Part shown: in pieces, positions 1-40,531 of the stretch
Layout of the letters: every line of letters starts with the position of its first letter
Position numbering within the stretch: position 1 is the stretch's first letter
Assembly (NCBI GenBank): GCA_902776945.1
Contig: CACYSH010000013.1
Span: 1 to 43,991, forward strand
DNA length: 43,991 nt
From: an uncultured Ruminococcus sp.
GTDB lineage: Bacteria > Bacillota > Clostridia > Oscillospirales > Ruminococcaceae
Reading direction: 5' to 3'
Translations under genes and position numbers: made by a program
Notes under the pieces: generated by a model
Database searches by the model: none
Told to the model about the DNA's origin: nothing
The model's input: the letters and a program-made list of their open reading frames with translations, nothing else

Positions 1-1
1 C

Positions 2-3000
2 TTTAAGTTCATTTCGCTCGGAGAACTGTCCGGTGACACGATAATCGCAAGCGGCACCTGCGGCGAGAATCTTACATGGAAACTCACCAAAGAGGGAACG
101 CTCACCATAAGCGGCACGGGAGAGATGAAATTTGCCAAAGGTGACGTTGGACGTGAAAAGCCCTGGTCTGACAAGAAGGAGAGTATAAAGAAAGTTATAA
201 TCGAAGACGGCGTTACAAGCGTCGGCGACGAGGCTTTCTACGGCTGCAAAAACCTTGCGGACGTAAGCCTGCCCGACAGTATCACAGGCGTTGGCAGCAA
301 TGCTTTTAACGATACGCCGTGGTTAAGCGCAAAGCAAACCGAAGATCCTCTTGTTATAGTGAATAACCTTCTTATCGACGGAAAAAAAGCAAAAGGAAAT
401 ATTATTATTCCCGACGGCGTTACAGGCATTGCCGATAATGCTTTCCACTACACCAACGGCATTACTGGCGTAAAATTCCCCGACAGCCTTACAAGCATCG
501 GAAACTGTGCCTTCAATGACTGCGAAAAGCTTGCGGGTGCTTTAATAATACCGGACAGCGTTACATACATTGGCGAGGGCGCTTTTGAAAGCTGTATAAG
601 CATTACAAAATTATCTTTGCCCAACAGCATTACGAGTATTAGCAAGGAAGCGTTTTGGGACTGTAACAGTCTTACGGAAGTTACCCTGCCGGACAGCGTT
701 ACAAGCATAGGCGATACGGCTTTTGCCAGCTGCGCAAACCTTGCAGAAGTAAATATCCCCTGCGGCGTTACAAGCATAGGCGAAAGTGCTTTTCAGGGCT
801 GCATAAAGCTGAAAGGCATAAAGCTGCCCGAAAGCCTTACAAGCATCGGGGAATATGCTTTTTACTTCACCGGTCTTGAAAGCCTTACCATTCCGGACGG
901 CGTTGAAAGCGTCGGCAAAGAAGCCTTCTTTAACTGCCGGGATCTTAAAAATGTCACTATCCCGAAAAGCGTTCAGAACATAGGCTCTTATGCTTTCGGA
1001 TACAGAAATGAAGAACGTGATTATTTCAAATATGATGGTTTCACAATAACGGGCTATATAGGCACCGCCGCCGAGACTTACGCAAATCGATACGGCTTTA
1101 AGTTCATATCCCTCGTTGACAGCGGCACCTGCGGCGAGAATCTCACATGGGAGCTTGACAGCAATGGTACGCTTACCATAAACGGCATGGGGGAAATGCT
1201 TTTTGACAGCGATGAAGCGCCGTGGTACGAAAACCACAATAATATAAAGAATGTCATCATCAAAAACGGCGTTACAAACATTGACGACTATGCTTTTGAC
1301 GGCTGCAAGAACCTTACAAGCGTCACTATCCCCAAGAGCGTTATCCGCATAGGCAAGGAGGCTTTCTGCGGCTGCGCAAGCCTTACCGGCATAGTTATCC
1401 CCGACGGCGTTGCAGGCATCGGCAAAGAAGCGTTCTCGGGCTGCAAGAGCCTTGCGGACATAACGTTCCCCGAAAGCCTGACGTACTTCGGCAGTCATGC
1501 GCTTGACGATACGGCATGGTTCAAAGCAAAGCAGGAGGAAAACCCGCTCGTTATTGTGAACAACATTCTTATCAACGGGCGCAAAGCAGACGGAGACGTT
1601 ACCGTTCCCGACGGCGTTGTGCTTATCTGCCCGAGCGCTTTTTACGGCTGCAAAAGCATTACAAGTGTTGTTCTGCCTGACAGTGTTGAAAACATCGGCA
1701 GCTGCGCTTTCGACAGCTGCACGAACCTTGCGCGGGTAAAGCTGCCGGAAGGCATTACCGGGATAGCAGGCGGCACCTTCCATTTATGCACGGCGCTTAC
1801 CGATGTTACTATCCCCGAAAGCGTTGAAAATATTGAAGAATCGGCTTTCTACGGCTGCAAGAGCCTTGAAGACATAACTATCCCCGACGGCGTAAAGAGC
1901 ATAAGAAACAGCGCCTTTATGGGCTGCGAAAGCCTTAAAAACATTACGATCCCCGCAGGAGTTTCCGTCATAGAAGACAAGGCATTCGGTTATACCTACT
2001 TAGAACCGGACAGTTCTTCCGAGCTTGCTGTCACAGACTTCACGATAACAGGATACGCAGGCACCGCCGCCGAAACTTATGCCAACGAAAACGGCTTTAA
2101 ATTTACAGTACCCGCGCCCAAAAGCGGCACCTGCGGGGCATACAGCCAGAATCAGGGCAAAAACCTCACCTGGACGCTTGACAGCGAGGGTACGCTCACG
2201 GTCAGCGGCATGGGGGCTATGGCTGACTATAACAACGGCAATGAAAACGCTCCGTGGTACGAAAGCAGGAATGACATTAAGAAGGTAGTTATAGAAGGTT
2301 TCGTTACAAACATCGGTGCCCGTGCTTTCTATGGCTGCAACAACCTTACGGACATTACTTTACCGAGAGGCATGAAAAGCATCGGCGAAACAGCCTTCTG
2401 TTTCTGCGAAAGCCTTGAAAGCATAACTCTCCCGGACAGTATTGCAAGCATAGGCAGCTATGCCTTCCAGGACTGCAAAAACCTCAAAAACATAAATATC
2501 CCGAATAATGTTACAAGTATTGGCAGAAATGCTTTCTATGGCTGCAAACGCATTACAAGCATAACGCTGCCGGACAGTATTAAAAGTATCGAGGAAGCTA
2601 CGTTCTATAATTGCTCAAGACTTACAAGCGTTACTATCCCGGATAGTGTTATAAGCATCGGCAAAAATGCTTTTAACAACTGTCAAAGGCTCAGAAAAGT
2701 TACTATCCCGGCGAGCGTTACAGACATCGGCAGCAACGCTTTCGGGTATTATGTAGACAGTAAATATTTTGTCAGCAAGATCGACGGCTTCAAGATAACA
2801 GGATACGCAGGCACCGCCGCCGAAACTTATGCCAACGAAAACGGCTTTGAGTTCATCGCGCTTGAAAAAGAAGTTTTCGCCGACCTCGACGGCAGCGGCG
2901 CGGCTGACGTTGACGACCTCGTTTTAATGCAGAAAAAGGTCGCGGGCTGGAAGGTCGGCTTGGACGAAAAATCCGCCGACTTAAACGGCGACGGCAATGT

Positions 3001-3076
3001 TGACGTTGAAGACCTTGTTCTTATGCAGAAGATAGTTGCGGGCTGGAAGGTCGAAAAGCCCGAAGCTCTTAAATAA
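2..3076 (+). CDS. BspA-like leucine-rich-repeat surface protein with C-terminal dockerin (5' end outside window)
   Basis: The reading frame is open from the first bases of the window, so the true start lies upstream; 1,024 residues are visible. The protein is made of repeated modules: a header of the type CGENLTW-LD-GTLTISG-GEM (around residues 20-40, 375-395 and 710-730), then many LRR_5 repeats of about 23 residues (pattern IPDGVTSIG-AFxGCxxL), closed by a GFTITGYAGTAAETYAN-type segment. The last 65 residues hold two calcium-binding dockerin repeats (DLDGSGAADVDDLVLMQK and DLNGDGNVDVEDLVLMQK). Dockerins bind cohesins on scaffoldins, so this should be a secreted protein attached to a cellulosome-like complex or the cell surface; LRR_5/BspA proteins often mediate adhesion. 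Ligand unknown. It is closely related to the next gene and probably arose with it by duplication. Confidence 0.9.
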   Translation, partial: FKFISLGELSGDTIIASGTCGENLTWKLTKEGTLTISGTGEMKFAKGDVGREKPWSDKKESIKKVIIEDGVTSVGDEAFYGCKNLADVSLPDSITGVGSNAFNDTPWLSAKQTEDPLVIVNNLLIDGKKAKGNIIIPDGVTGIADNAFHYTNGITGVKFPDSLTSIGNCAFNDCEKLAGALIIPDSVTYIGEGAFESCISITKLSLPNSITSISKEAFWDCNSLTEVTLPDSVTSIGDTAFASCANLAEVNIPCGVTSIGESAFQGCIKLKGIKLPESLTSIGEYAFYFTGLESLTIPDGVESVGKEAFFNCRDLKNVTIPKSVQNIGSYAFGYRNEERDYFKYDGFTITGYIGTAAETYANRYGFKFISLVDSGTCGENLTWELDSNGTLTINGMGEMLFDSDEAPWYENHNNIKNVIIKNGVTNIDDYAFDGCKNLTSVTIPKSVIRIGKEAFCGCASLTGIVIPDGVAGIGKEAFSGCKSLADITFPESLTYFGSHALDDTAWFKAKQEENPLVIVNNILINGRKADGDVTVPDGVVLICPSAFYGCKSITSVVLPDSVENIGSCAFDSCTNLARVKLPEGITGIAGGTFHLCTALTDVTIPESVENIEESAFYGCKSLEDITIPDGVKSIRNSAFMGCESLKNITIPAGVSVIEDKAFGYTYLEPDSSSELAVTDFTITGYAGTAAETYANENGFKFTVPAPKSGTCGAYSQNQGKNLTWTLDSEGTLTVSGMGAMADYNNGNENAPWYESRNDIKKVVIEGFVTNIGARAFYGCNNLTDITLPRGMKSIGETAFCFCESLESITLPDSIASIGSYAFQDCKNLKNINIPNNVTSIGRNAFYGCKRITSITLPDSIKSIEEATFYNCSRLTSVTIPDSVISIGKNAFNNCQRLRKVTIPASVTDIGSNAFGYYVDSKYFVSKIDGFKITGYAGTAAETYANENGFEFIALEKEVFADLDGSGAADVDDLVLMQKKVAGWKVGLDEKSADLNGDGNVDVEDLVLMQKIVAGWKVEKPEALK

Positions 3077-3089
3077 CACACCGACCGCA

Positions 3090-3119
3090 CGGCGGAGCTT
3101 TTACGGCTCCGCCGTTTTT
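3090..3119 (+). terminator. Rho-independent terminator of the first LRR-dockerin gene
   Basis: Nine-base-pair GC-rich stem (CGGCGGAGC / GCTCCGCCG) with a TTTAC-type loop followed by TTTTT, 14 bases after the stop codon. An almost identical hairpin ends the second LRR gene at 6634-6663. Confidence 0.9.
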
Positions 3120-3135
3120 GTTAAAATGAAAACAA

Positions 3136-3500
3136 AGTGAGGGCAAACTAAAAGTCTTAGGAAGGGGGGCTGGGGGACAACCCTTCTTCAGAAGGGTTTC
3201 CCCCAGCGACTGAGCGGTTCAAGCATCAAATCGGAGAAAGAAAATTGAACGGCTAAAAAATAAAATCGGCAATTTCAAGAAAGACTAACAAAAACGCACA
3301 AACGATAAAATCAGCAGAACGTAACGGAAACAAAGAAATTGCCGATTTTATTGCGTGAAAGAGCGCAGCGATTTTCACGCAATAATAGCGCGACGGCAGG
3401 AAATATCCTCGCGGCATGGAAATGTCTGTGTGTAGGGGCGCAAATTTTCTCGTCCGTGAATTGCCATATCCTCGCGCAATTCTTTGCGCAAATTACAGCA
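3136..3500 (+). repeat. Composite intergenic repeat, copy 1 (forward)
   Basis: Fills most of the 530-base gap between the two LRR genes. In order: a conserved stretch with AAAGTCTTAGGAAG, a G-rich hairpin (CTGGGGGA...TCCCCCAG), GAGCGGTTCAAG, a 90-bp core with perfect 15-bp inverted arms TAAAATCGGCAATTT (3261-3275) and AAATTGCCGATTTTA (3336-3350), a GCGTGAAAGAGCGCAGCGATTTTCACGC hairpin zone, and GTAGGGGCGCA. The same order recurs at 20495-20777, 25470-25800 and 40140-40465, and partly at 15541-15700. Confidence 0.85.
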
Positions 3501-3610
3501 TCACTCATTTATTATATTTAGATAAATAAAACCGTACATCAGAACCTTTTATCTCTGCTCTTTTCGCGTATTGCACAAATTCGATATTAAACAATTGTGA
3601 AATAACGTGC

Positions 3611-3639
3611 TTGATTTGCAATACAAAATAGTGTATAAT
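3611..3639 (+). promoter_or_regulatory. Promoter of second LRR-dockerin gene
   Basis: TTGATT (3611-3616), 17-base spacer, TATAAT (3634-3639). It overlaps the apparent upstream GTG start at 3607, which supports starting the protein at the ATG at 3676. Confidence 0.8.
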
Positions 3640-3675
3640 AGTATAGAAACATTTTATATACAAGGAGGTCATTTT

Positions 3676-6621
3676 ATGAATAAACGATTTTTAAGCGGAC
3701 TGGCTGCACTGGCTATGGTCTTTTCGGGAGCAGGTGCGCTCCCCGGAGGGACGTTCGAGTGGGTCGATCTTGTCGCAAGCGCGGATATTATTATTGACAG
3801 CGGCAAATGCGGCGAGAAGCTCACATGGGAGCTTGACAGCGAGGGTACGCTTACCATAAGCGGCACGGGAGAAATGTATAATTTCGGCGACTATCTTGGT
3901 GAACCCAATCCTCAGCCGTGGCTCGATAACATCGAAAATATCAAAAAGGTCGTTATAGGCAACGGAGTAACGACCATCGGATCGGACGCATTTTACGAGT
4001 GCGAAAACATTGAAAGCGTCGAACTGCCCGACTCTCTGACTCATATCGGTACTTTCGCGTTTTCTTTCTGCTACGGTCTGAAAAGCGTGACTATCCCCGA
4101 CAATGTAGAGACGATCGACTTTTATGCGTTCGCGAGATGCACGAATCTTGAAAACGTCACTATCTCCAACAGCGTTAAGGTCATTATGGACGGAGCCTTT
4201 TTCAACTGCACGAACATCAAAAACGTAACTATCCCAAAAAACGTTACGATGATCGGCGATATAGCCTTCGGTTATCATTATGATGATACTAAAGGAGACG
4301 TTATAAACGAAGGCTTCACCATAACCGGCAGCAAAGGCTCCGCCGCCGAAAAGTACGCCAAAGATAAAGGCTTTGAGTTCATCGACATTAACACCACGTT
4401 CGAAACAATCGCCGGCGGCGAATGCGGCGAAAACTGCACATGGACTCTCGACAGCGAAGGCACATTTACCGTAAGCGGCACCGGGGACATGATAGATACC
4501 GCTGACGACCCGTTCTCATTGCCTTGGAACAGCTATCGGAATGACATCAAAAAGGTAGTCATCGAGGACGGCATTACATCTATCGGCTGCGAAGCATTTT
4601 ACGGCTGCACGAACCTCACAAATGTAGTTTTTTCCAAAACTCTTATAAAAATCGGCGGACGGTGCTTCTATTGCTGCCCGAACCTTAAAAACGTGAATAT
4701 CCCGAGAAACGTTTCCGAGATAGGATACAGAACTTTCGGCTACGACGAGGATGCAGGAGTTGTCAAGGTTGAAGGCTTTACCATAACGGGCTATACCAAT
4801 TCCGATGCCGAGCTTTACGCCAGGAAAAACGAAATTGAGTTTGTTTCGATAGGCTATCTGCCCGCCGTTATTTTATACGCCGGCAATTACGGCGATGAGA
4901 TCTCATGGTCGCTCGACACTGAGGGAACGCTTACCTTAGAAGGCTATGGAACAATGCCCAATGCAACGTTACTATCGGATCTGCCGTGGAATGATTACCT
5001 TGAAGATATAAAGAAAGTAGACATCGAATACGGCGTTTATAACATCGGCGGTGCTGCTTTCGCCGATTGCCCGAACCTTGAAAGCGTGTCTATCCCTTAC
5101 GGCGTTAACGACATAGGCTATAATGCGTTCACCTACTGCACGAAGCTCACAAGCGTAACGCTGCCCGAAAGCGTTATGTCGATAGGCTACGGCGCTTTCT
5201 ATAACTGCCCGAATCTTTTGTACATAAACATACCCGAAAGCGTTACCGAGATCGGCTCGGGCGCATTGGACGAAACAGCATGGATGAAAGCCCGTCAGGA
5301 AGAAAACCCGCTGGTAATCGTGAACGATATGCTTATCAACGGATTGGCGGCGAAAGGCAGCGTTACCATACCTGACAGCGCTACCGAAATCATTGAGGGC
5401 GCGTTCTATGAGAGCAGCGATCTTGAAAGCCTTACCGTTACCGGCGACACCGAGAACATCGGCGATTTTATATGCTTCAAATGTGAAAACCTTTCAAGCG
5501 TTACTATTGAGGAAGGCGTTAAGAAGGTAGGCGAATATGCTTTCTGCCTGTGCAGCAACCTGAAAAACGTTACTATCCCCGCAAGCGTTGAGGAGATAGG
5601 AAACTTCGCCTTTGGCTATATTGATAAGTATAACGATTATGAACCCCTTGAAGGCTTCACCATTACCGGCTACAACGACACTGCCGCCGAGATCTACGCT
5701 GCCGAAAACGGCTTTGAGTTCATCTCGCTCGGCGAGATCCCCGAGCCCCAGGTAATCGCCGACGGCGAATGCGGCGAGAACTGCACATGGACTCTCGACA
5801 ACCTCGGTACGCTCACTATCAGCGGCACGGGAGATATGGAAGATTATACTTTTTCAAAAGCTCCGTGGTATACATATAGAGACAACATTAAAAATCTTGT
5901 AGTAGAGGACGGCGTTACGGGCATCGGCAAAAACGCTTTCCAGGACTGCAAAAAAATCAAAAACTTTACTATCGCGGACAGCGTTAAGCAAATTAAAGAG
6001 TATGCTTTCTGCGGATGTTCGGGTATCAAGGAATTAAATCTACCGGATAGCGTTGAGACTATCGGCAGCCGTGCTTTCAAGGACTGCACAGGTCTCAGAA
6101 TCATATATGACTGGAACGGCGTTAAAAGCATCGGCAACTCGGCTTTTGAAAGCTGCACAAGCCTTGAAAGCATAATACTTCCGGACAAAATTACAAGCAT
6201 CGGCAAAAATGCTTTCTTAAACTGCCCGAAGACATTGTTCGTATATGTTCCGCTTAACGTTACCAAGATCGGCGAAAAGGCTTTCGGCTATGCCGGAGAT
6301 AAGAAGACCGAAGGCTTCACCGTAGCAGGCTACTCGAACACTGTCTCTGAAAAGTACGCGGCTGACAACAAATTTGAGTTCATTCAGCTCACTATTTACG
6401 GCGACATCAGCGGCGACAACAAAACCGACGTTGACGACCTCGTTTTAATGCAGAAAAAGGTCGCGGGCTGGAATGTCGATGACCAGTTAAAAGATCCTTA
6501 TCCTTACGACGACAGAGAGCCTGCCGACCTGAACGGCGACGGCAATGTTGACGTTGACGACCTTGTGCTTATGCAGAAGATCGTCGCGGGCTGGAAGGTC
6601 GAAGAAATCATTAATTTCTGA
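3676..6621 (+). CDS. Secreted BspA-like leucine-rich-repeat protein with C-terminal dockerin
   Basis: 981 residues from the ATG at 3676, which follows AAGGAGG at the right distance and lies downstream of a consensus promoter; a GTG at 3607 in the same frame lies upstream of the promoter and is not the start. Residues 1-35 form a signal peptide (MNKRFLSG, hydrophobic core, VASA cleavage region). Four modules follow, each beginning CGE-xxTWxLDxxGTLTIxGxG and containing several LRR_5 repeats, each ending in a GFTITGY-type segment. The C-terminus carries two dockerin calcium loops (DISGDNKTDVDDLVLMQK, DLNGDGNVDVDDLVLMQK) separated by an acidic insert. The expected location is outside the cell, docked to a cohesin. 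It is a paralogue of the upstream gene; function beyond adhesion or scaffold attachment cannot be read from sequence. Confidence 0.93.
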   Translation: MNKRFLSGLAALAMVFSGAGALPGGTFEWVDLVASADIIIDSGKCGEKLTWELDSEGTLTISGTGEMYNFGDYLGEPNPQPWLDNIENIKKVVIGNGVTTIGSDAFYECENIESVELPDSLTHIGTFAFSFCYGLKSVTIPDNVETIDFYAFARCTNLENVTISNSVKVIMDGAFFNCTNIKNVTIPKNVTMIGDIAFGYHYDDTKGDVINEGFTITGSKGSAAEKYAKDKGFEFIDINTTFETIAGGECGENCTWTLDSEGTFTVSGTGDMIDTADDPFSLPWNSYRNDIKKVVIEDGITSIGCEAFYGCTNLTNVVFSKTLIKIGGRCFYCCPNLKNVNIPRNVSEIGYRTFGYDEDAGVVKVEGFTITGYTNSDAELYARKNEIEFVSIGYLPAVILYAGNYGDEISWSLDTEGTLTLEGYGTMPNATLLSDLPWNDYLEDIKKVDIEYGVYNIGGAAFADCPNLESVSIPYGVNDIGYNAFTYCTKLTSVTLPESVMSIGYGAFYNCPNLLYINIPESVTEIGSGALDETAWMKARQEENPLVIVNDMLINGLAAKGSVTIPDSATEIIEGAFYESSDLESLTVTGDTENIGDFICFKCENLSSVTIEEGVKKVGEYAFCLCSNLKNVTIPASVEEIGNFAFGYIDKYNDYEPLEGFTITGYNDTAAEIYAAENGFEFISLGEIPEPQVIADGECGENCTWTLDNLGTLTISGTGDMEDYTFSKAPWYTYRDNIKNLVVEDGVTGIGKNAFQDCKKIKNFTIADSVKQIKEYAFCGCSGIKELNLPDSVETIGSRAFKDCTGLRIIYDWNGVKSIGNSAFESCTSLESIILPDKITSIGKNAFLNCPKTLFVYVPLNVTKIGEKAFGYAGDKKTEGFTVAGYSNTVSEKYAADNKFEFIQLTIYGDISGDNKTDVDDLVLMQKKVAGWNVDDQLKDPYPYDDREPADLNGDGNVDVDDLVLMQKIVAGWKVEEIINF

Positions 6622-15498: not shown

Positions 15499-15524
15499 GT
15501 AGGGGCGCACCTGTGTGTGCGCCC
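15499..15524 (+). repeat. GTAG-tagged REP hairpin (GGGCGCAC stem)
   Basis: GTAG followed directly by GGGCGCAC, six-base loop, GTGCGCCC. Same layout as the REP copies in and around the transposase gene but with a different, self-complementary stem. Confidence 0.6.
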
Positions 15525-15540: not shown

Positions 15541-15700
15541 TTATGATATTTCCTACATTAGCGTAAGTCATTTGCGAAAATCGCTCCGCTCTTTCGCAAA
15601 TTAAAATCGGCAATTTACTTGTTTCCGTCACGGTTTGCAGATTTATTCAATTTGCTTGTTTTTGTGGGCTTTTCTTTAAATTGCCGATTTTAATTTTGAC
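15541..15700 (-). repeat. Composite intergenic repeat, partial copy (reverse)
   Basis: Contains the TTTGCGAAAATCGC...CTCTTTCGCAAA zone and the 91-bp core with arms at 15602-15616 and 15678-15692 (perfect 15 bp). The G-rich hairpin module is missing. Confidence 0.8.
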
Positions 15701-20301: not shown

Positions 20302-20323
20302 GTAGGGTCGGGGCTTGCCCGAC
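20302..20323 (+). repeat. GTAG-tagged REP hairpin
   Basis: GTAG (20302-20305) followed by GTCGGG, GCTTG, CCCGAC. Member of the REP family associated with the transposase at 30836. Confidence 0.55.
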
Positions 20324-20453: not shown

Positions 20454-20494
20454 TGACTGCGCAATTCTGCCCCACTATCGCGGTTTCGGAACAT

Positions 20495-20777
20495 TAGCGC
20501 AAATTATTTGCGAAAATCGCTGCGCTCTTTCGCAAATATAAAATCGGCAATTTACTTGTTTCCGTTACGCTCTGCTGATTTTATCACTTCTGCTTTTTTG
20601 TGGGCTTTCTCTTGAAATTGCCGATTTTATTTTTGAACCGATTAAATTCTTGCTGTTTCTCACAATACTTGAACCGCTCAGTTTCTGGGGGAAACCCTTC
20701 TGAAGAAGGGTTATCCCCTGCACGAACTTGTTCGTGCCACCCCCTTCCTAAGACTTTTGGTTTGCCCTCACTTTGCG
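20495..20777 (-). repeat. Composite intergenic repeat, copy 2 (reverse)
   Basis: Full element in reverse: TTTGCGAAAATCGC hairpin zone, 91-bp core with arms at 20539-20553 and 20615-20629, CTTGAACCGCTCAGT, G-rich hairpin, CCTAAGACTTTTGGTTTGCC. An 18-bp palindrome GCACGAACTTGTTCGTGC (20720-20737) sits in the G-rich module. It fills most of the 528-base gap before the epimerase. Confidence 0.85.
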
Positions 20778-21877: not shown

Positions 21878-23371
21878 TCAATCCCTCCTGAACAGGTCGC
21901 GGGTGTAAACTTTTTCCTCAACGTCGTCAAGCACGCTGTCGTAGCGGTTGGCGATAATGCAGCCGCACATCTTCTTGAACTTATTAAGATCGTTCACAAC
22001 GACCGAGCCAAAGAATGTGGAGCCGTCCTCTAAGGTAGGTTCATATATTACTACTGTCGCGCCCTTTGCCTTGATGCGCTTCATTACGCCCTGTATCGAG
22101 GACTGACGGAAATTATCTGAATTGGATTTCATTGTCAGACGGTAAACGCCTACTACAACTTCCTTCTGCTTTTTCTCCTGCGCCGCATTGTACTTTGAGG
22201 ACGCGGTGTAAGTTCCGGCGATCTCCAGCACGCGCTCGGCGATGAAGTCCTTTCTCGTGCGGTTCGATTCAACGATAGCGGACATCATGTTCTGCGGCAC
22301 GTTCGCGTAGTTGGCGAGCAGCTGCTTGGTATCCTTCGGCAGACAGTAGCCGCCGTAGCCGAAGGACGGGTTATTGTAATAATCGCCCACGCGGGGGTCA
22401 AGGCAAACGCCCTTGATTATCGAGCCTGTGTTGAGCGACTTGACCTCCGCGTAGGTGTCAAGCTCGTTGAAGTACGAAACGCGCAGCGCTAAGTAGGTAT
22501 TAACGAACAGCTTAGTCGCTTCGGCTTCGGTGGTCGGCATGAAAAGCAGCGGAATATCGGTCTTGACAGCGCCCTGTCTGAGCATCGCCGCGAAGGTCTG
22601 TGCGGCTTCGGCGTTTTTCTCGTCCGACCCGACGATTATGCGGCTGGGGTACAGATTATCGTAAAGCGCCTTTGATTCACGCAGAAATTCGGGGCTGAAA
22701 ATGATGTTGTCCATACCCATTTTCTCGCGCACCTGCGCTGTGTAGCCGACGGGGATAGTTGACTTGATAACGATAGTCGGCTTTTTGTCGCTGTCAGCCG
22801 TTACCGATTTAATGAGCGTCAGCACGGCTTCAACGGCGGAGCAGTCAAAGAAATTGGTCTTGGGGTCGTAATTGGTCGGGGCGGCGACTATGATATAATC
22901 GGCGTTTTTGTATGCGGATTCTCCGTCGGTGGTGGCGGTGAGCGAAAGCCCGCGCTCGTCGTACTCGGCGAGATATTTTTCGATATAATCGTCCTGAATG
23001 GGGCTGATGCGGTTGTTGAGCTTTTCCACCTTTTCGGGAACGATGTCAACGGCGGTAACGTCGTTATGCTGGGAAAGCAGCACCGCAAGCGAAAGTCCGA
23101 CATAGCCGGTTCCCGCAACGGCGATCTTTTTGCGTTCCACGGGAGCGGTCTCGGTCTCGTTGTCGGTGATAACGTCCGACGGGCGGAAATCGAGCGCTTC
23201 GGCAAGCGCGAGCAGCTGATCTACCGACGGGCTGTAATCGCGCATTTCGAGCCGCGAGATAACGGCGCGGTTGATACCTGTCTTTTCGGCAAGAGCCGCC
23301 TGAGACAGTTTAAGCGATTTGCGCTTTGCAGTAACAGTCCCGGCAAGCAGTTCAAGAGATAAGTGTTTCAT
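21878..23371 (-). CDS. ugd: UDP-glucose 6-dehydrogenase with N-terminal XRE DNA-binding domain
   Basis: 497 residues. Residues 8-70 are an XRE/Cro-type helix-turn-helix ([20 protein letters not shown], then RAVISRLEM). Residues 82-490 are a nucleotide-sugar dehydrogenase: NAD-binding [40 protein letters not shown] and catalytic Cys343 in GGYCLPKDT. Usual dehydrogenases are about 390-430 residues, so the HTH is an addition. The reaction makes UDP-glucuronate with two NAD; the DNA-binding domain suggests the enzyme may also sense its substrate or cofactor and control genes, perhaps its own. The reading frame is continuous between the domains, with one promoter and RBS (AAAAGGAG) in front of the HTH. 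Confidence 0.92.
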
Positions 23372-25469: not shown

Positions 25470-25800
25470 TGATTATGTAGGGGTGCGCATTGCTCGCCCG
25501 TGAATTATCCCCGCCGTGATGATATTTCCTACTTCGCGCTTTTCATTTGCGAAAATCGCTTCGCTCTTTCGCAAATATAAAATCGGCAATTTATTTGTTT
25601 CCGCTCAATTCTGCTGAATTATCATTTTGCTTGTTTTTGTTAGCTTTTCTTGAAATTGCCGATTCTATTTTTGAACCGTCCGGCTTTCTTTCTCCGATTT
25701 AATACTTGAACCGCTCAGTCTCTGGGGGAAAACCCTTCTGAAGAAGGGTTATTCCCCCAGACCCCCTTTCCTAAGACTTTTGGTTTGTCCTCACTTTGCA
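25470..25800 (-). repeat. Composite intergenic repeat, copy 3 (reverse)
   Basis: Fills the gap before the purD terminator. Includes GTAGGGGTGCGC, the TTTGCGAAAATCGC zone, the 90-bp core with arms at 25578-25592 and 25653-25667 (one mismatch), TTGAACCGCTCAGT, and the G-rich hairpin CTGGGGGAAAACCCTTCT / AGAAGGGTTATTCCCCCAG. Confidence 0.85.
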
Positions 25801-25805
25801 TTTTC

Positions 25806-25841
25806 CTTAAAAAATCTCCCCCGCGTGTATCTGCGGGGGAG
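25806..25841 (-). terminator. Terminator of the purine operon after purD
   Basis: Minus strand CTCCCCCGC, eight-base loop, GCGGGGGAG, then ATTTTTT; nine bases after the purD stop. Confidence 0.92.
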
Positions 25842-30046: not shown

Positions 30047-30478
30047 TCAGGTCAGATTGATTTTTTCAAATTGCTTTTTCTTGTCGGCTGTTGTGTGTAA
30101 TATTATTGTACTGCTTGTCAGCTTTGCCGACTTGATAATGTTTGCGGTTATGAAATTAATGTATTCATCGCGTTTGCTGCTGCCGTATCTCGGCAGGCAT
30201 ACGGGTAACGGCTCGGTCGCTGACATTCCGAACGCTATGGACGGCTTTAGATAAATTCCGCCGCACATCTGCTTTAGCCTTTCGGTGTCTCCTGCCTGGT
30301 CGGCTTCAATGAATGCCAAATATTCATCATGCGTCAATTCGTACAATTCTTCATGGTCAGTCGAACCGATGCGCTGTGAATAAACGTACTGCCCGCCGTC
30401 CGTTATGCCCAATATGAAATCATCGGACAGATACAGGCAATAATAATTGACAAATTTTCTCCCGGCGGTCAGTCCCAT
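30047..30478 (-). CDS. Hypothetical protein, coupled to the Imm51-like gene
   Basis: 143 residues. The ATG lies ten bases inside the end of the Imm51-like gene, so it would be translated by coupling; only a weak GGCGAG ribosome site is present. The sequence has a short beta-rich start (YYCLYLSDDFILGITDGG) and a basic C-terminus (ADKKKQFEKINLT). No recognised domain. The start is uncertain. Confidence 0.6.
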   Translation of the reverse strand: MGLTAGRKFVNYYCLYLSDDFILGITDGGQYVYSQRIGSTDHEELYELTHDEYLAFIEADQAGDTERLKQMCGGIYLKPSIAFGMSATEPLPVCLPRYGSSKRDEYINFITANIIKSAKLTSSTIILHTTADKKKQFEKINLT

Positions 30479-30831
30479 TCGATCTCGCCGCCGTATTCCC
30501 TGACAAAATCAAACAGCTTTTCGGTGTCCTCTGTCAGCGAAGTAATTATTTCGGCGAGCGTTTCGGCGTTCGTTTTGCCCTCGCCGGTGTTTTCGAAATA
30601 CGCCGCATATAAGCCCGCCTCGCTGTCGGTCTCGAATGTGTCAAGAAGCTCGGGCGCGTTGTTTTCGATATAGCAATTTAACACCGCCTCCCAGTTATAG
30701 CCGTTCATGTAAGCGTTTTCGTCTATCTCGGAAAGCTGTTCGCCAATATCCATTATTTCCGGATTTTCAATGTAAAAGCAGACGGATATTTGATCGTCGT
30801 CGGTGAATATTTTTACATTTTCGTTCGGCAT
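30469..30831 (-). CDS. Imm51-like immunity-type protein
   Basis: 120 residues, acidic. The pattern NGYNWEAVLNCYIENNAPELLD, then TDSEAGLYAAYF and the end FDFVREYGGEIEWD agree with what I recall of the Imm51 family, immunity proteins of polymorphic toxin systems. No toxin gene is visible nearby, so it may be an orphan immunity gene. AGGAG precedes the ATG. Confidence 0.7.
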   Translation of the reverse strand: MPNENVKIFTDDDQISVCFYIENPEIMDIGEQLSEIDENAYMNGYNWEAVLNCYIENNAPELLDTFETDSEAGLYAAYFENTGEGKTNAETLAEIITSLTEDTEKLFDFVREYGGEIEWD

Positions 30832-30835
30832 GATG

Positions 30836-31372
30836 TTAATTCTCCTGTGTATTATGTTCGTGATACCATTTCATCGGATTTTCGTAAATATAGCGGCAAA
30901 TATCGTTGTATGCGTTTTCGTTTCTTATGATGTGTTCGTAAAATGACGTTTGAAAAATCTTGCGACCCTTTACGTTATCACGTTTGTTGCAAATCAATGT
31001 TGTCATTGATTTATATGTACATATTATATCGCACAATGTAGGGCGGGGGCTTGCTCCCGCCCGTCCGCCTTCGTCGAATAATATTATTATCATGTGGATA
31101 TGATTTGGCATTATCACACATCTATCAATTGAAATAAACGGATAGCGATTTTCCAATTCTTTTAATTGTTCAAATGCGGTTATTCCTATTTCCGTTAATC
31201 TCGTCCGGTATAGGGCGGGAGCAAGCCCCCGCCCTACATCGTATTGCAAAGAATCAAATATTATTTCAGATAGGATTTCTAATGCGTTTTGTGTGCAGAT
31301 AGTTACATAGTAATAGCCTGCTTTGGAATAATCATATTCCTTTAAGCGCGGGTGTTTTCTGTGGTGTTCCAT
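30836..31372 (-). CDS. REP-associated tyrosine transposase (RAYT, Y1 HUH family) with REP sequence inside the gene
   Basis: 178 residues. Start RKHPRLKEYDYSKAGYYYVTICTQ is the family N-terminus; HUH motif H91-I-H93 in VIMPNHIHMI; C-terminal FYEHIIRNENAYNDICRYIYENPMKW contains the likely catalytic Tyr (Y161). RAYTs act on REP hairpins with a GTAG guide. Two REP hairpins lie inside this gene in opposite orientation and encode VGRGLAPAL (residues 46-54) and GGRAGASPRP (102-111) in frame. The ATG overlaps the purO stop by one base (TAATG), so translation is coupled to a purine gene. Probably active or recently active since motifs are intact. Confidence 0.9.
   Translation of the reverse strand: MEHHRKHPRLKEYDYSKAGYYYVTICTQNALEILSEIIFDSLQYDVGRGLAPALYRTRLTEIGITAFEQLKELENRYPFISIDRCVIMPNHIHMIIILFDEGGRAGASPRPTLCDIICTYKSMTTLICNKRDNVKGRKIFQTSFYEHIIRNENAYNDICRYIYENPMKWYHEHNTQEN
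31038..31062 (+). repeat. REP hairpin inside the transposase gene (copy A)
   Basis: GTAG (31038-31041) overlapping GGGCGGG, loop GGCTTGCT, CCCGCCC. Orientation opposite to copy B, 150-200 bases away. Confidence 0.85.
31213..31237 (-). repeat. REP hairpin inside the transposase gene (copy B)
   Basis: Inverse of copy A: GGGCGGG, loop AGCAAGCC, CCCGCCC, CTAC (GTAG on the minus strand at 31237-31234). The pair resembles a BIME-type inverted REP pair. Confidence 0.85.
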
Positions 31373-32115
31373 TACACCTTATTAAATTTATTGACCACCT
31401 TAGTCTTTTCCTCGCCGGTAGCGATGTCAATAAACCTTACAAACAGCGATACCTTGTTATCCTCGTTGAGGGCGTTCCATAGACCGTCGGTGAACTCGTC
31501 AATGTCGTTCGGAACGGAAATTTTTTTCGGCTCGCCTTCGAACGAGGGCAGGGGATTGCCGTCGCCCATGTAGGTGTGAATGAAATGACCGAAGCCCGCC
31601 ACAGGGTTCGAGTAGGTAAATGTGAAGCGCTCAACGCACGAGGGGTCGCCGTCGGCGGATTTCAGTATCGACATGGCATAGTTATAGGTGTTGTCGTGCG
31701 CGTCAGCGCTAAGACGGTTTTCGATGTGCATGATTCCCGAAATGCGGGGGGTGTAGTTGGGCGCGTCGTCCTCGTATTCGCGGGTGCGAAGGGACTGCTC
31801 GAAGGTCTGCTGCTTGTCCATAAGCTCGTAAATTGTGTCGGTCTGGTCGCCGTTGGTAACGATCGTCTTGTTGCCGAGCTTCCTCACCGGCGAATAGATG
31901 ATAAGATGCGGGTCGGAGAGCTTCGAGGGGTCGGCGGCTTCGGTCTTGATGCCGTCGGCGGTCTCGGTGAACACGCGGTTGCGGCTGTTCACGCTGCGCC
32001 CCATAATAAAGTAGGCGGTCACGGCGCTTTTGCCGTCGGCGCTCTTGCCGATGATGATACCTCTGCCGGGATAGCTGTTGCCTTTCAGTTCCTCGTAAAT
32101 GTCAAGTGTTTTCAT
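31372..32115 (-). CDS. purO: IMP cyclohydrolase, PurO-type
   Basis: 247 residues. Starts YPGRGIIIGKSADGKSAVTAYF with NSRNRVF, then PHLIIYSPVR and VTNGDQTDTI, as in the PF07826-type IMP cyclohydrolases first described in archaea (PurO). Closes FAICAR to IMP, the final step of the pathway, and complements the stand-alone formyltransferase at 28748. GGAGGT precedes the ATG; the stop overlaps the start of the transposase gene. Confidence 0.93.
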   Translation of the reverse strand: MKTLDIYEELKGNSYPGRGIIIGKSADGKSAVTAYFIMGRSVNSRNRVFTETADGIKTEAADPSKLSDPHLIIYSPVRKLGNKTIVTNGDQTDTIYELMDKQQTFEQSLRTREYEDDAPNYTPRISGIMHIENRLSADAHDNTYNYAMSILKSADGDPSCVERFTFTYSNPVAGFGHFIHTYMGDGNPLPSFEGEPKKISVPNDIDEFTDGLWNALNEDNKVSLFVRFIDIATGEEKTKVVNKFNKV

Positions 32116-32530: not shown

Positions 32531-33022
32531 TTATGATCGGTATTTTTCCATAAATGCGTTATATTCCTCGTCGGACATGACCCCGTGAACGCCGTCAAGC
32601 TCTTCCGGGGAAATGCCGAGCTTATCAAGAATGAACGCCGCCATTCCCTCGCTGTCGAATTTTGCGCGTTTGCTTTTGCGGCAGCGCTCACCTATCGCCG
32701 CTATCGACTCGGCGATATTCTTTACCGTCATGAGATAGCGTGTGTGCTTGTCCGCTTCGATAAGCTCCCTGTACGGCATCGGCAGACGTATATCGGCACG
32801 GTGTTCGTTATATCTTACCAGTCGGCGCGGCTTGCCCCAGCCTGCCGCAAGAGAATTTTCATCAAAGCAGTTTATTATAATGCCGACATCGGTTATATCG
32901 GTCGAGTAGGGCGAGAGGTCGAAGTTATTCCCGTCTATCTTTTGACGTATATCTTTCAATATCGGAAAAAGTATTCCGCCCGCCGCGTTTGAGACCTCCA
33001 TGCTGATAAAAAGCTGTCTCAT
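32531..33022 (-). CDS. Hypothetical protein, possibly Imm44-like
   Basis: 163 residues; GGAGG before the ATG. The pattern MRQLFISMEVSNAAG, ITDVGIIINCFDE, GWGKPRRLVRYNEHRADIRL and the helical C-terminus resemble Imm44-type immunity proteins as I recall them, but the match is weak and from memory. No membrane or signal segment. Lies between purN and the 130-residue gene, both on the same strand. Confidence 0.6.
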   Translation of the reverse strand: MRQLFISMEVSNAAGGILFPILKDIRQKIDGNNFDLSPYSTDITDVGIIINCFDENSLAAGWGKPRRLVRYNEHRADIRLPMPYRELIEADKHTRYLMTVKNIAESIAAIGERCRKSKRAKFDSEGMAAFILDKLGISPEELDGVHGVMSDEEYNAFMEKYRS

Positions 33023-35178: not shown

Positions 35179-35475
35179 AAAGTTAATAGTTAATAAAGTT
35201 AATAGTTAATAGTGAATAGTGAATAGTTAAGGTGTCCGCTTCGCGGACGATATTATGCGGACGCTGCGCGCCGCACTGAATTTATTACTGCTACCCACAA
35301 TTTAAGGTTGATGAAGTTGTAGGGCAAGCCGCCCTACGAATATAGCGGTTAGTGGACAGGTCTTGTAAAATAACATCAGTGCGGAGCCTGCGCGAGCGCA
35401 GCTCGTGCAGCTTCCGCATAATCGCGCCGAAGGCGCTCCTTAACTATTAACTATTCACTCTTCACTATTAACTGA
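35179..35475. repeat. Heptamer-bordered intergenic element, copy 3 (complete)
   Basis: Fills the 333-base gap upstream of the DUF2262 pair. Left border has several copies of AGTTAAT/AGTGAAT; right border has the inverse (TTAACTATTAACTATTCAC). Inside: GTCCGCTTCGCGGAC hairpin, a REP (GTAGGGC-AAGCC-GCCCTAC, 35319-35337) and TTCCGCATAATCGCGCCGAAGG. The right 70 bases match copies at 11980-12045 and 13395-13480. Confidence 0.75.
35319..35337 (+). repeat. GTAG-tagged REP hairpin inside the heptamer-bordered element
   Basis: GTAGGGC, AAGCC loop, GCCCTAC, perfect 7-bp arms, with GTAG on both strands. Confidence 0.6.
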
Positions 35476-40110: not shown

Positions 40111-40135
40111 CGGCGGGGGCAAGCCCCCGCCCTAC
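40111..40135 (-). repeat. REP hairpin (GTAG on the minus strand)
   Basis: GCGGGGGC-AA-GCCCCCGC followed by CCTAC. The stretch before it, GTGCCGACAAGCGG, recurs before the copy at 40507. Confidence 0.75.
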
Positions 40136-40139
40136 AAGC

Positions 40140-40465
40140 TCGCAAAATGAGGGCATACCAAAAGTCTTAGGAAGGGGGTGGCACGAACAAGTTCGTGCAG
40201 GGGATAACCCTTCTTCTTGCACGAACTTGTTCGTGCAAAGGGTCTTCCCCCACAAAAGTCGGCGGCGTTCGCAAGCTAACGGTAAAGAGAAAATTGAGAG
40301 GTTCAAAATTAAAATCGGCAATTTCAAGAAAGACTAACAAAAACAAGCAATATGATAAAATCCGCAGAACGTGGCAGAAACGAGCAAATTGCCGATTTTA
40401 ATTTGCGAGAAGAGCGGTCTGAACGAAGTTCAGACAGGCGATATTTCGCAAAGAATAGCGCAAAT
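40140..40465 (+). repeat. Composite intergenic repeat, copy 4 (forward)
   Basis: Fills the middle of the 780-base gap between rsmA and spoIIE. Starts GAGGGCATACCAAAAGTC, has two 18-bp palindromes GCACGAAC-AA/TT-GTTCGTGC (40181-40198, 40219-40236) in the G-rich module, then the 91-bp core with perfect arms at 40310-40324 and 40386-40400 and a TTTGCGAGAAGAGCG zone. REP copies flank it on both sides; the rest of the gap shows no gene. Confidence 0.85.
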
Positions 40466-40506: not shown

Positions 40507-40531
40507 CGGCGGGAGCAAGCCCACGCCCTAC
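40507..40531 (-). repeat. REP hairpin (GTAG on the minus strand)
   Basis: GCGGGAGCAAGCCCACGCCCTAC; same preceding sequence (GTGCCGATAAGCGG) as the copy at 40111. Confidence 0.65.

Follow-up and report, generated by a model that had tools for sequence, protein, structure and literature searches.

An inverted pair of REP hairpins inside the coding sequence of a RAYT gene from Ruminococcus and its relatives

We found that a gene for a REP-associated tyrosine transposase (RAYT) of an uncultured Ruminococcus sp. contains, inside its open reading frame, two exact inverted copies of GTAGGGCGGGGGCTTGCTCCCGCCC, a 25-nt GTAG hairpin (REP). The REPs lie at two fixed places flanking the codons of the HUH motif, one having GTAG on each DNA strand, in nearly constant phase. 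The feature is real, well supported and widespread. Comparison of homologues shows that the gene retains a matched pair of REPs; how the copies are exchanged and what the pair is used for are inferences. On balance we favor the reading that an inverted pair of cognate REPs is a permanent component of the RAYT gene, making it a self-contained REPtron whose in-gene copies are exchanged with those of the genome. All coordinates refer to the window, i.e., the whole stretch of 43,991 nucleotides that was analyzed; the genome to which it belongs (G000) comprises 4.0 Mb in 280 contigs. The gene and its REPs are arranged as follows.

30836..31372, minus strand: RAYT open reading frame, 178 amino acids, ATG start
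31213..31237, minus strand: site A REP, lying upstream of the HUH codons with its GTAG on the coding strand and encoding V46 to about A53
31094..31102, minus strand: His-Ile-His codons (H91-H93) of the HUH motif, between site A and site B
31038..31062, plus strand: site B REP, lying downstream of the HUH codons with its GTAG on the non-coding strand and encoding approximately G103-T112
30890..30892, minus strand: codon of Y161, the presumed catalytic tyrosine (YIYENP), a role assigned from the family

GTAG points outward at both sites, with the HUH codons in between. The in-frame readings are VGRGLAPAL at site A and GGRAGASPRPT at site B; the two inverted copies, which had been noticed in a preliminary description of this DNA, are both exact and are translated in an open frame. 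The same description had assigned the gene to the Y1/HUH-type RAYTs, and this was borne out. The profile NF047646 (REP-associated tyrosine transposase) matched the window protein with 60.9 bits (E 1.2e-16), short of the 80 bits set as its cut-off, and the three homologues that were scored likewise all stayed below that cut-off; Pfam Y1_Tnp gave 17.2 bits, below its cut-off of 23. The best solved structure found by sequence search was 4er8 (E 4.2e-4), a RAYT-REP complex, which was also the top fold match of an AlphaFold2 model (56-row alignment, mean pLDDT 86.9), at E 2.9e-6 and a TM-score of only 0.52-0.56. H91, H93, and Y161 are invariant in the alignment of 56 sequences, and the HUH motif and the single Tyr of the Y1 fold are present. 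Judged by sequence and model, the gene encodes a RAYT-type HUH/Y1 protein, a putative transposase. No second RAYT was found in the window genome by similarity or with the NF047646 profile, and the window gene is the only one found there.

In the model, the site A peptide is located between strands 35-39 and 55-59, and the site B peptide between strand 91-98, which carries the HUH motif, and helix 113-132. Residue blocks 41-50 (pLDDT 56) and 101-110 (pLDDT 69) contain most of the two REP-coded peptides, and both peptides are predicted to be loops of the RAYT protein. The residues of the E. coli enzyme that contact GTAG are given in the text of Quentin 2018 (PMC6006769) as W94, Q95, E100, H101, and R104. 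By spacing, without superposition, F140, Q141, E146, H147, and R150 of the window protein correspond to them; Q141 and R150 are invariant and H147 nearly invariant in the 56 aligned sequences, while the position of W94 is F in the window protein and W in most homologues.

The preliminary description had also proposed a dispersed family of GTAG REPs, and the genome contains one: the 25-mer REP was found in 155 copies with up to 3 mismatches vs. 0 for the control, and the pattern GTAGGGCGGGN{0,12}CCCGCCC in 50 copies vs. 0 for the reversed control. Outward pairs of REPs also occur elsewhere in the genome, for example at C72:4125/4250 and C75:2968/3058. Gene context was determined for 30 positions out of the 50 pattern copies, two of them being both strands of one palindrome. 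Three of the 30 were inside open reading frames of at least 100 amino acids: two in the RAYT gene and one in a frame whose TTG start lies six bases ahead of the REP, probably not a true gene. The only evident gene containing a REP in this sample is thus the RAYT gene, with two of the 30 positions. Five further sites of the window had been described as having the same layout.

40111..40135, minus strand: dispersed copy of the window REP, 2 mismatches
40507..40531, minus strand: dispersed copy of the window REP, 2 mismatches
15499..15524, plus strand: REP belonging to another GTAG family, of which G000 has 94 exact-pattern copies
20302..20323, plus strand: GTAG hairpin of a related-looking type, stem GTCGGG/CCCGAC, read from the sequence
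35319..35337, plus strand: short double-foot GTAG/CTAC palindrome, read from the sequence

The sites at 40111 and 40507 are indeed of the same family; 15499 is not, 20302 has a hairpin that only looks related, and 35319 is a short palindrome. Because the five sites span different families, their stem differences, which had been taken for compensatory changes, reflect family membership at least in part; it is between the two in-gene sites of homologues that compensatory change was shown. The second GTAG-REP family is mostly GTAGGGGCGCACCTATGTGTGCGCCC and often forms inverted pairs about 50 bp apart; on contig C42, a second-family pair is nested within a first-family pair (22149-22363). A second RAYT was considered as the source of this family, and none was found in G000. 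REPs without a cognate RAYT do exist: besides the 94 copies of the second family, 17 copies of the window REP are present in another member of the bacterial family (G154), where no RAYT matched the A1 profile, a search whose empty result is weak by itself.

A search of 197 genomes of the family yielded 18 loci (window gene included), with hits in 12 of the 197 genomes. A further 80 loci were taken from GTDB contigs and are the best 80 by similarity of at least 592 stretches from at least 484 relatives. Because the query by which these best matches were ranked included the REP-coded residues, frequencies in the set are not population estimates. We analyzed 97 of the 98 loci, leaving out L065, which had no match to the HUH pattern; the window gene is one of the 97, as are genes containing a stop (L036, L038), and near-duplicates (L056/L057, L088/L091, L106/L118, and others) were counted separately. 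In 90 of the 96 other homologues listed, the reading frame stays open for 130-260 codons counted from the match start.

Among the 97 listed genes, REP hairpins were present at both sites in 52, at site B only in 25, at site A only in 3, and at neither in 17; site A thus has a GTRG hairpin in 55 genes and site B in 77. The inserts, which might have been peculiar to the window gene, are shared by these 52 listed homologues, and the nearest relatives among the matches listed are Clostridia, not the Proteobacteria in which the partnership of REPs and RAYTs had been placed. The hairpin threshold, six pairs, was chosen after a first scoring at seven (26 genes with both, 25 with B, 2 with A, 44 with neither), which missed six-pair stems with clear A/B matches; in the newer scoring, a threshold of seven gives 29/97 at site A and 51/97 at site B among the listed genes. 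In 2910 first-order Markov resamples, a hairpin occurred at site A in 0.9% and at site B in 0.7%, and the background in the same loci was 149 of 7290 other 150-nt stretches. When the 130 nt before the HUH codons were paired with the 100 nt after them, an ungapped inverted match with a score of at least 16 was obtained in 53 of the 97 listed genes vs. 15 of 776 mismatched gene pairs. The resamples, together with the genome pattern controls, rule out a chance origin of the in-gene REPs. Neither of the two outcomes named beforehand as speaking against the feature, i.e., homologues carrying the residues with no hairpin-forming DNA and a lack of over-representation in the genome, occurred. The observation itself is confirmed, and its first interpretation is partly supported.

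The phase of GTAG at site A was the same in 54 of the 55 listed genes that have it; at site B, 66 of the 77 listed genes were in one phase and 11 in a second. The outer span of the in-gene pair had a median of 194 nt (52 listed genes). The segment at site A had a median length of 28 residues in the 55 listed genes with a REP there and 21 in the 42 without, while the segment at site B measured 29 residues with a REP and 31.5 without (medians, listed genes). A quick tree was calculated with the REP codons masked and with SH-aLRT support only. Its supported set that holds the window gene has both REPs in 33 of 38 listed rows. Counted by hand, 24 of the listed rows belong to a named phylum other than Bacillota; 1 of these (Omnitrophota) has both REPs, 13 have B only, and 10 have neither. 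On the tree, REP presence changes 16 times for site A and 19 times for site B. Since the segment is longer with a REP at site A and not at site B, and in view of the distribution on the tree, site A looks like an extra insertion, mainly in Clostridia. One genome (G105) has four RAYTs (L034, L044, L046, L048), three with the downstream REP only and one with both, and their REP types differ.

We compared the two copies in the 52 genes scored as having both. The REP at site A agreed with site B of its own gene at a median identity of 0.96 (identical in 21 of the 52 listed genes) vs. a mean of 0.62 with site B of another listed gene, and there were 37 distinct site A sequences among the listed 52. 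Site A was closer to its own site B than to site A of the nearest relative in 27 of the 52 listed genes, tied in 12, and farther in 13; for site B, compared with its own site A and the nearest relative's site B, the listed genes numbered 27 closer, 17 tied, and 8 farther. Concerted turnover of the two sites is therefore clear from these sequence comparisons, but it is partial and not universal. The two copies differ in 31 genes, and compensatory differences were counted in the 30 of these where A and B have equal length. Of 44 differences at paired positions, 19 were compensatory, 15 were unpaired in both copies, 6 broke one hairpin, and 4 were G-U. All compensatory differences were within the outer seven pairs; counted by hand over the outer eight pairs, 19 of 22 were compensatory, 2 breaking, and 1 G-U. 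These changes are in part not independent, being shared by close relatives (L093, L097, and L100, for example, share one). Since A/B differences in the outer stem are mostly compensatory, each site is maintained as a separate hairpin, and it is the DNA hairpin that is kept. The encoded peptides, in contrast, are free to vary.

The in-gene REPs were further compared with the REP pools of whole genomes. Four in-gene types were searched in the same 12 genomes, 6 of which served only as non-cognate, and the counts include the in-gene copies. The cognate REP was dispersed in all 6 genomes searched for their own in-gene type. The window type had, next to its 155 copies in G000, 38 copies in the genome of L049 and 40 in that of L055, and the other types had 32 (L087), 35 (L088), and 21 (L106) copies in their own genomes. 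In contrast, 38 of 42 non-cognate combinations had 0-4 copies, the exceptions being G203 (23 and 80), G204 (12), and G207 (30). Hand counts of exact copies gave, in G000, 42 ending in CCC vs. 14 that differ only by a CCG end, the RAYT gene having CCC; in the genome of L055 they gave 4 copies ending in CCC vs. 26 ending in CCG, the RAYT gene having CCG. In these two genomes, in-gene and genomic REP sequences thus agree even at the last base. Outside the gene, loci contained on average 0.72 copies of their own REP vs. 0.068 of mismatched REPs (50 of 55 genes counted, 5 having no recognizable tag in the matched part); any such copy was found in 14 of the 50 loci, and 13 of the 36 copies were in one locus.

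If the favored reading of a lasting, cognate pair is right, the RAYT protein would bind the in-gene hairpins as single-stranded DNA (GTAG plus palindrome), by analogy with E. coli TnpA-REP, and the in-gene copies would swap sequence with the genomic REP pool through RAYT strand transfer or ordinary gene conversion. The protein would tolerate the REPs because both encode loops. With enzyme and substrate on one DNA segment, the two could be transferred jointly and seed a new REP family. With exchange with the pool and a pair inside the gene, the gene would thus be a self-contained REPtron; the pair may act as a source of REPs, as a linkage of enzyme and substrate, or in self-regulation. Several results speak against this reading or against a tight coupling of RAYT and REP: the REPs found without a cognate RAYT, the four non-cognate combinations with 12 or more copies, the partial character of the concerted turnover, the 17 listed genes with neither REP, the compensatory changes shared by relatives, and profile scores below the curated cut-offs. 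A gene with its own substrate would allow the likely cognate REP of an enzyme to be named from sequence alone, would offer natural pairs of enzyme and REP by the dozen in which specificity can be tested, and would let their co-evolution be measured directly across Clostridia, which bears on how RAYTs recognize, spread, and keep REPs. We more tentatively suggest, as something that may well prove wrong, that the RAYT coding sequence of Clostridia is a master REP element, its pair being kept matched to the REP population of the genome by the enzyme's own activity. Were this true, gene and substrate would form a single transferable unit in evolution, and each genome would have its REP dialect written in the gene of the enzyme.

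A somewhat unlikely account is opportunistic insertion, in which REPs land repeatedly in two permissive loops and are tolerated without a function in the gene. Intragenic REPs are read in this way in the texts of Di Nocera 2013 and Quentin 2018, and the lower-confidence loops of the model at both sites, the approximately 7 additional residues of the site A segment when a REP is present, and the frequent changes of REP presence on the tree all agree with it. However, three observations exceed what free insertion would give, although a strict insertion hot spot could mimic them: the near-constant phase, orientation, and position, the presence of both REPs in 33 of 38 listed rows of the supported set around the window gene, and the rarity of REPs in other evident genes among the 30 sampled positions of G000. 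The site B segment, moreover, is not longer when it contains a REP.

Self-regulation, i.e., limitation of RAYT expression by the RAYT protein or by a stem, through the REPs in mRNA or single-stranded DNA, seems improbable to us. Folding of a single mRNA, that of the window gene, predicts a stem of about 30 bp between A and B that surrounds the HUH codons (z -7.4). However, the 19 compensatory changes of the outer stem keep each hairpin and not the A:B pairing, so the long A:B stem does not appear to be the conserved thing, and an mRNA stem as the conserved unit is unsupported; in addition, the RAYTs described in PMC8266576, as far as its text covers them, act on single-stranded DNA. The idea that the peptides matter and the hairpins are incidental draws on the near-constant phase, the Val-Gly with which most site A peptides start, and the Pro-Thr with which most site B peptides finish, but it is highly improbable, being largely refuted, except for the residues coded by the tags, by the 35 distinct nine-residue peptides at A and 41 at B in the 52 listed genes (selected for the palindrome) and by L032, whose A hairpin is read in another frame.

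REPs within a RAYT gene had been thought unusual; they are already known. In the text of Quentin 2018 (PMC6006769), TnpA-REP subclass 2.4 (Bertels group 4) has REPs inserted in the reading frame of the gene, in general between HuH and Y, its hosts being Cyanobacteria, Bacteroidetes, and various phyla, and its motif table gives NH[IFV]H, WQ, and YIxNNP. The window protein, with NHIH, FQ (W in the majority of homologues), and YIYENP, resembles this subclass in its NH[IFV]H, W/FQ, and YI..NP motifs, its long GTAG REPs, and their in-frame position, although the table has N where the window gene has E. Site B corresponds to the subclass 2.4 REP between HuH and Y. The window gene differs by the additional inverted REP upstream of HuH, by the match of the pair to a dispersed REP, and by its Clostridia relatives; no mention of the upstream REP, the pair, or the agreement with genomic REPs was found in the sections consulted of PMC6006769, whose figure S10 may show a pair. 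The REPtron of E. coli (TnpA-REP, subclass 2.2, PDB 4er8) shares the HUH/Y1 fold, the GTAG-contact positions, and the dispersed REPs, but according to the same text its REPs flank the gene and have a bulge, and its HUH motif is DHLH.

The text of Di Nocera 2013 (PMC3733652) describes GTAG/CGTC REPs that are in frame, as here, but inside unrelated genes, many of them for DNA synthesis and repair; for tyrosine transposases it describes REPs that flank the genes or overlap their ends. The sections consulted of PMC8266576 (2021) deal with the single-strand cutting mechanism and with group 2 and 3 enzymes tried with REP substrates, and those of PMC8049555 with REPINs, which are commoner in E. coli with a RAYT. 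A literature search found no paper, by title or abstract, on in-gene RAYT REPs in Clostridia. Single in-frame REPs are therefore known, and what seems new, as far as these texts go, is the second REP upstream, which results in an inverted pair around HUH, found mainly in Clostridia and matching the genomic REP.

The arrangement recalls that of another element. REPINs are short elements, for the most part non-coding, in which two inverted REPs have their GTAGs facing outward; they are present in several copies with a related spacer. The GTAGs of the window pair likewise point outward, but between its two REPs lies the catalytic portion of a gene. No second protein-level copy of the REP-to-REP segment of the RAYT gene was found in the window genome, and recent copying of this segment was rejected on this ground. 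With a coding spacer that has no such copy, the in-gene pair is REPIN-like and not a REPIN copy.

Upstream of the RAYT gene, a purO-like gene was found, flanked together with it by genes for immunity-like proteins.

31372..32115, minus strand: IMP cyclohydrolase-like (purO-like) gene, PF07826 229 bits, stop overlapping the RAYT start (TAATG)
30469-30831 and 32531-33022: immunity-protein-like genes, one at each flank of the purO/RAYT pair

Co-translation of RAYT with purO had been called unusual in the preliminary description. The purO neighborhood was found in only 1 of the 97 listed homologue loci, namely that of the window; at least 17 of the remaining loci extend no more than about 1.5 kb past the match. 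A conserved operon with purO was not found in the listed loci of relatives. In 21 of 93 listed loci, counting the window's, an upstream frame on the same strand has its end no more than 40 nt from the match start. The flanking genes are Imm51-like (81 bits) and Imm44-like (22.9 bits, below the cut-off).

Two other kinds of repeats were seen in the window. One, at most about 280 bp long and by eye unrelated to the REPs, is intergenic and dispersed in both orientations.

3117-3391, 15558-15699, 20494-20777, 25533-25814, and 40141-40416: copies of this intergenic repeat

Positions 1-6600 contain a long repeat run with a period of 69 nt (23 residues) and four units of 81 nt, which we take to resemble dockerin or EF-hand repeats.
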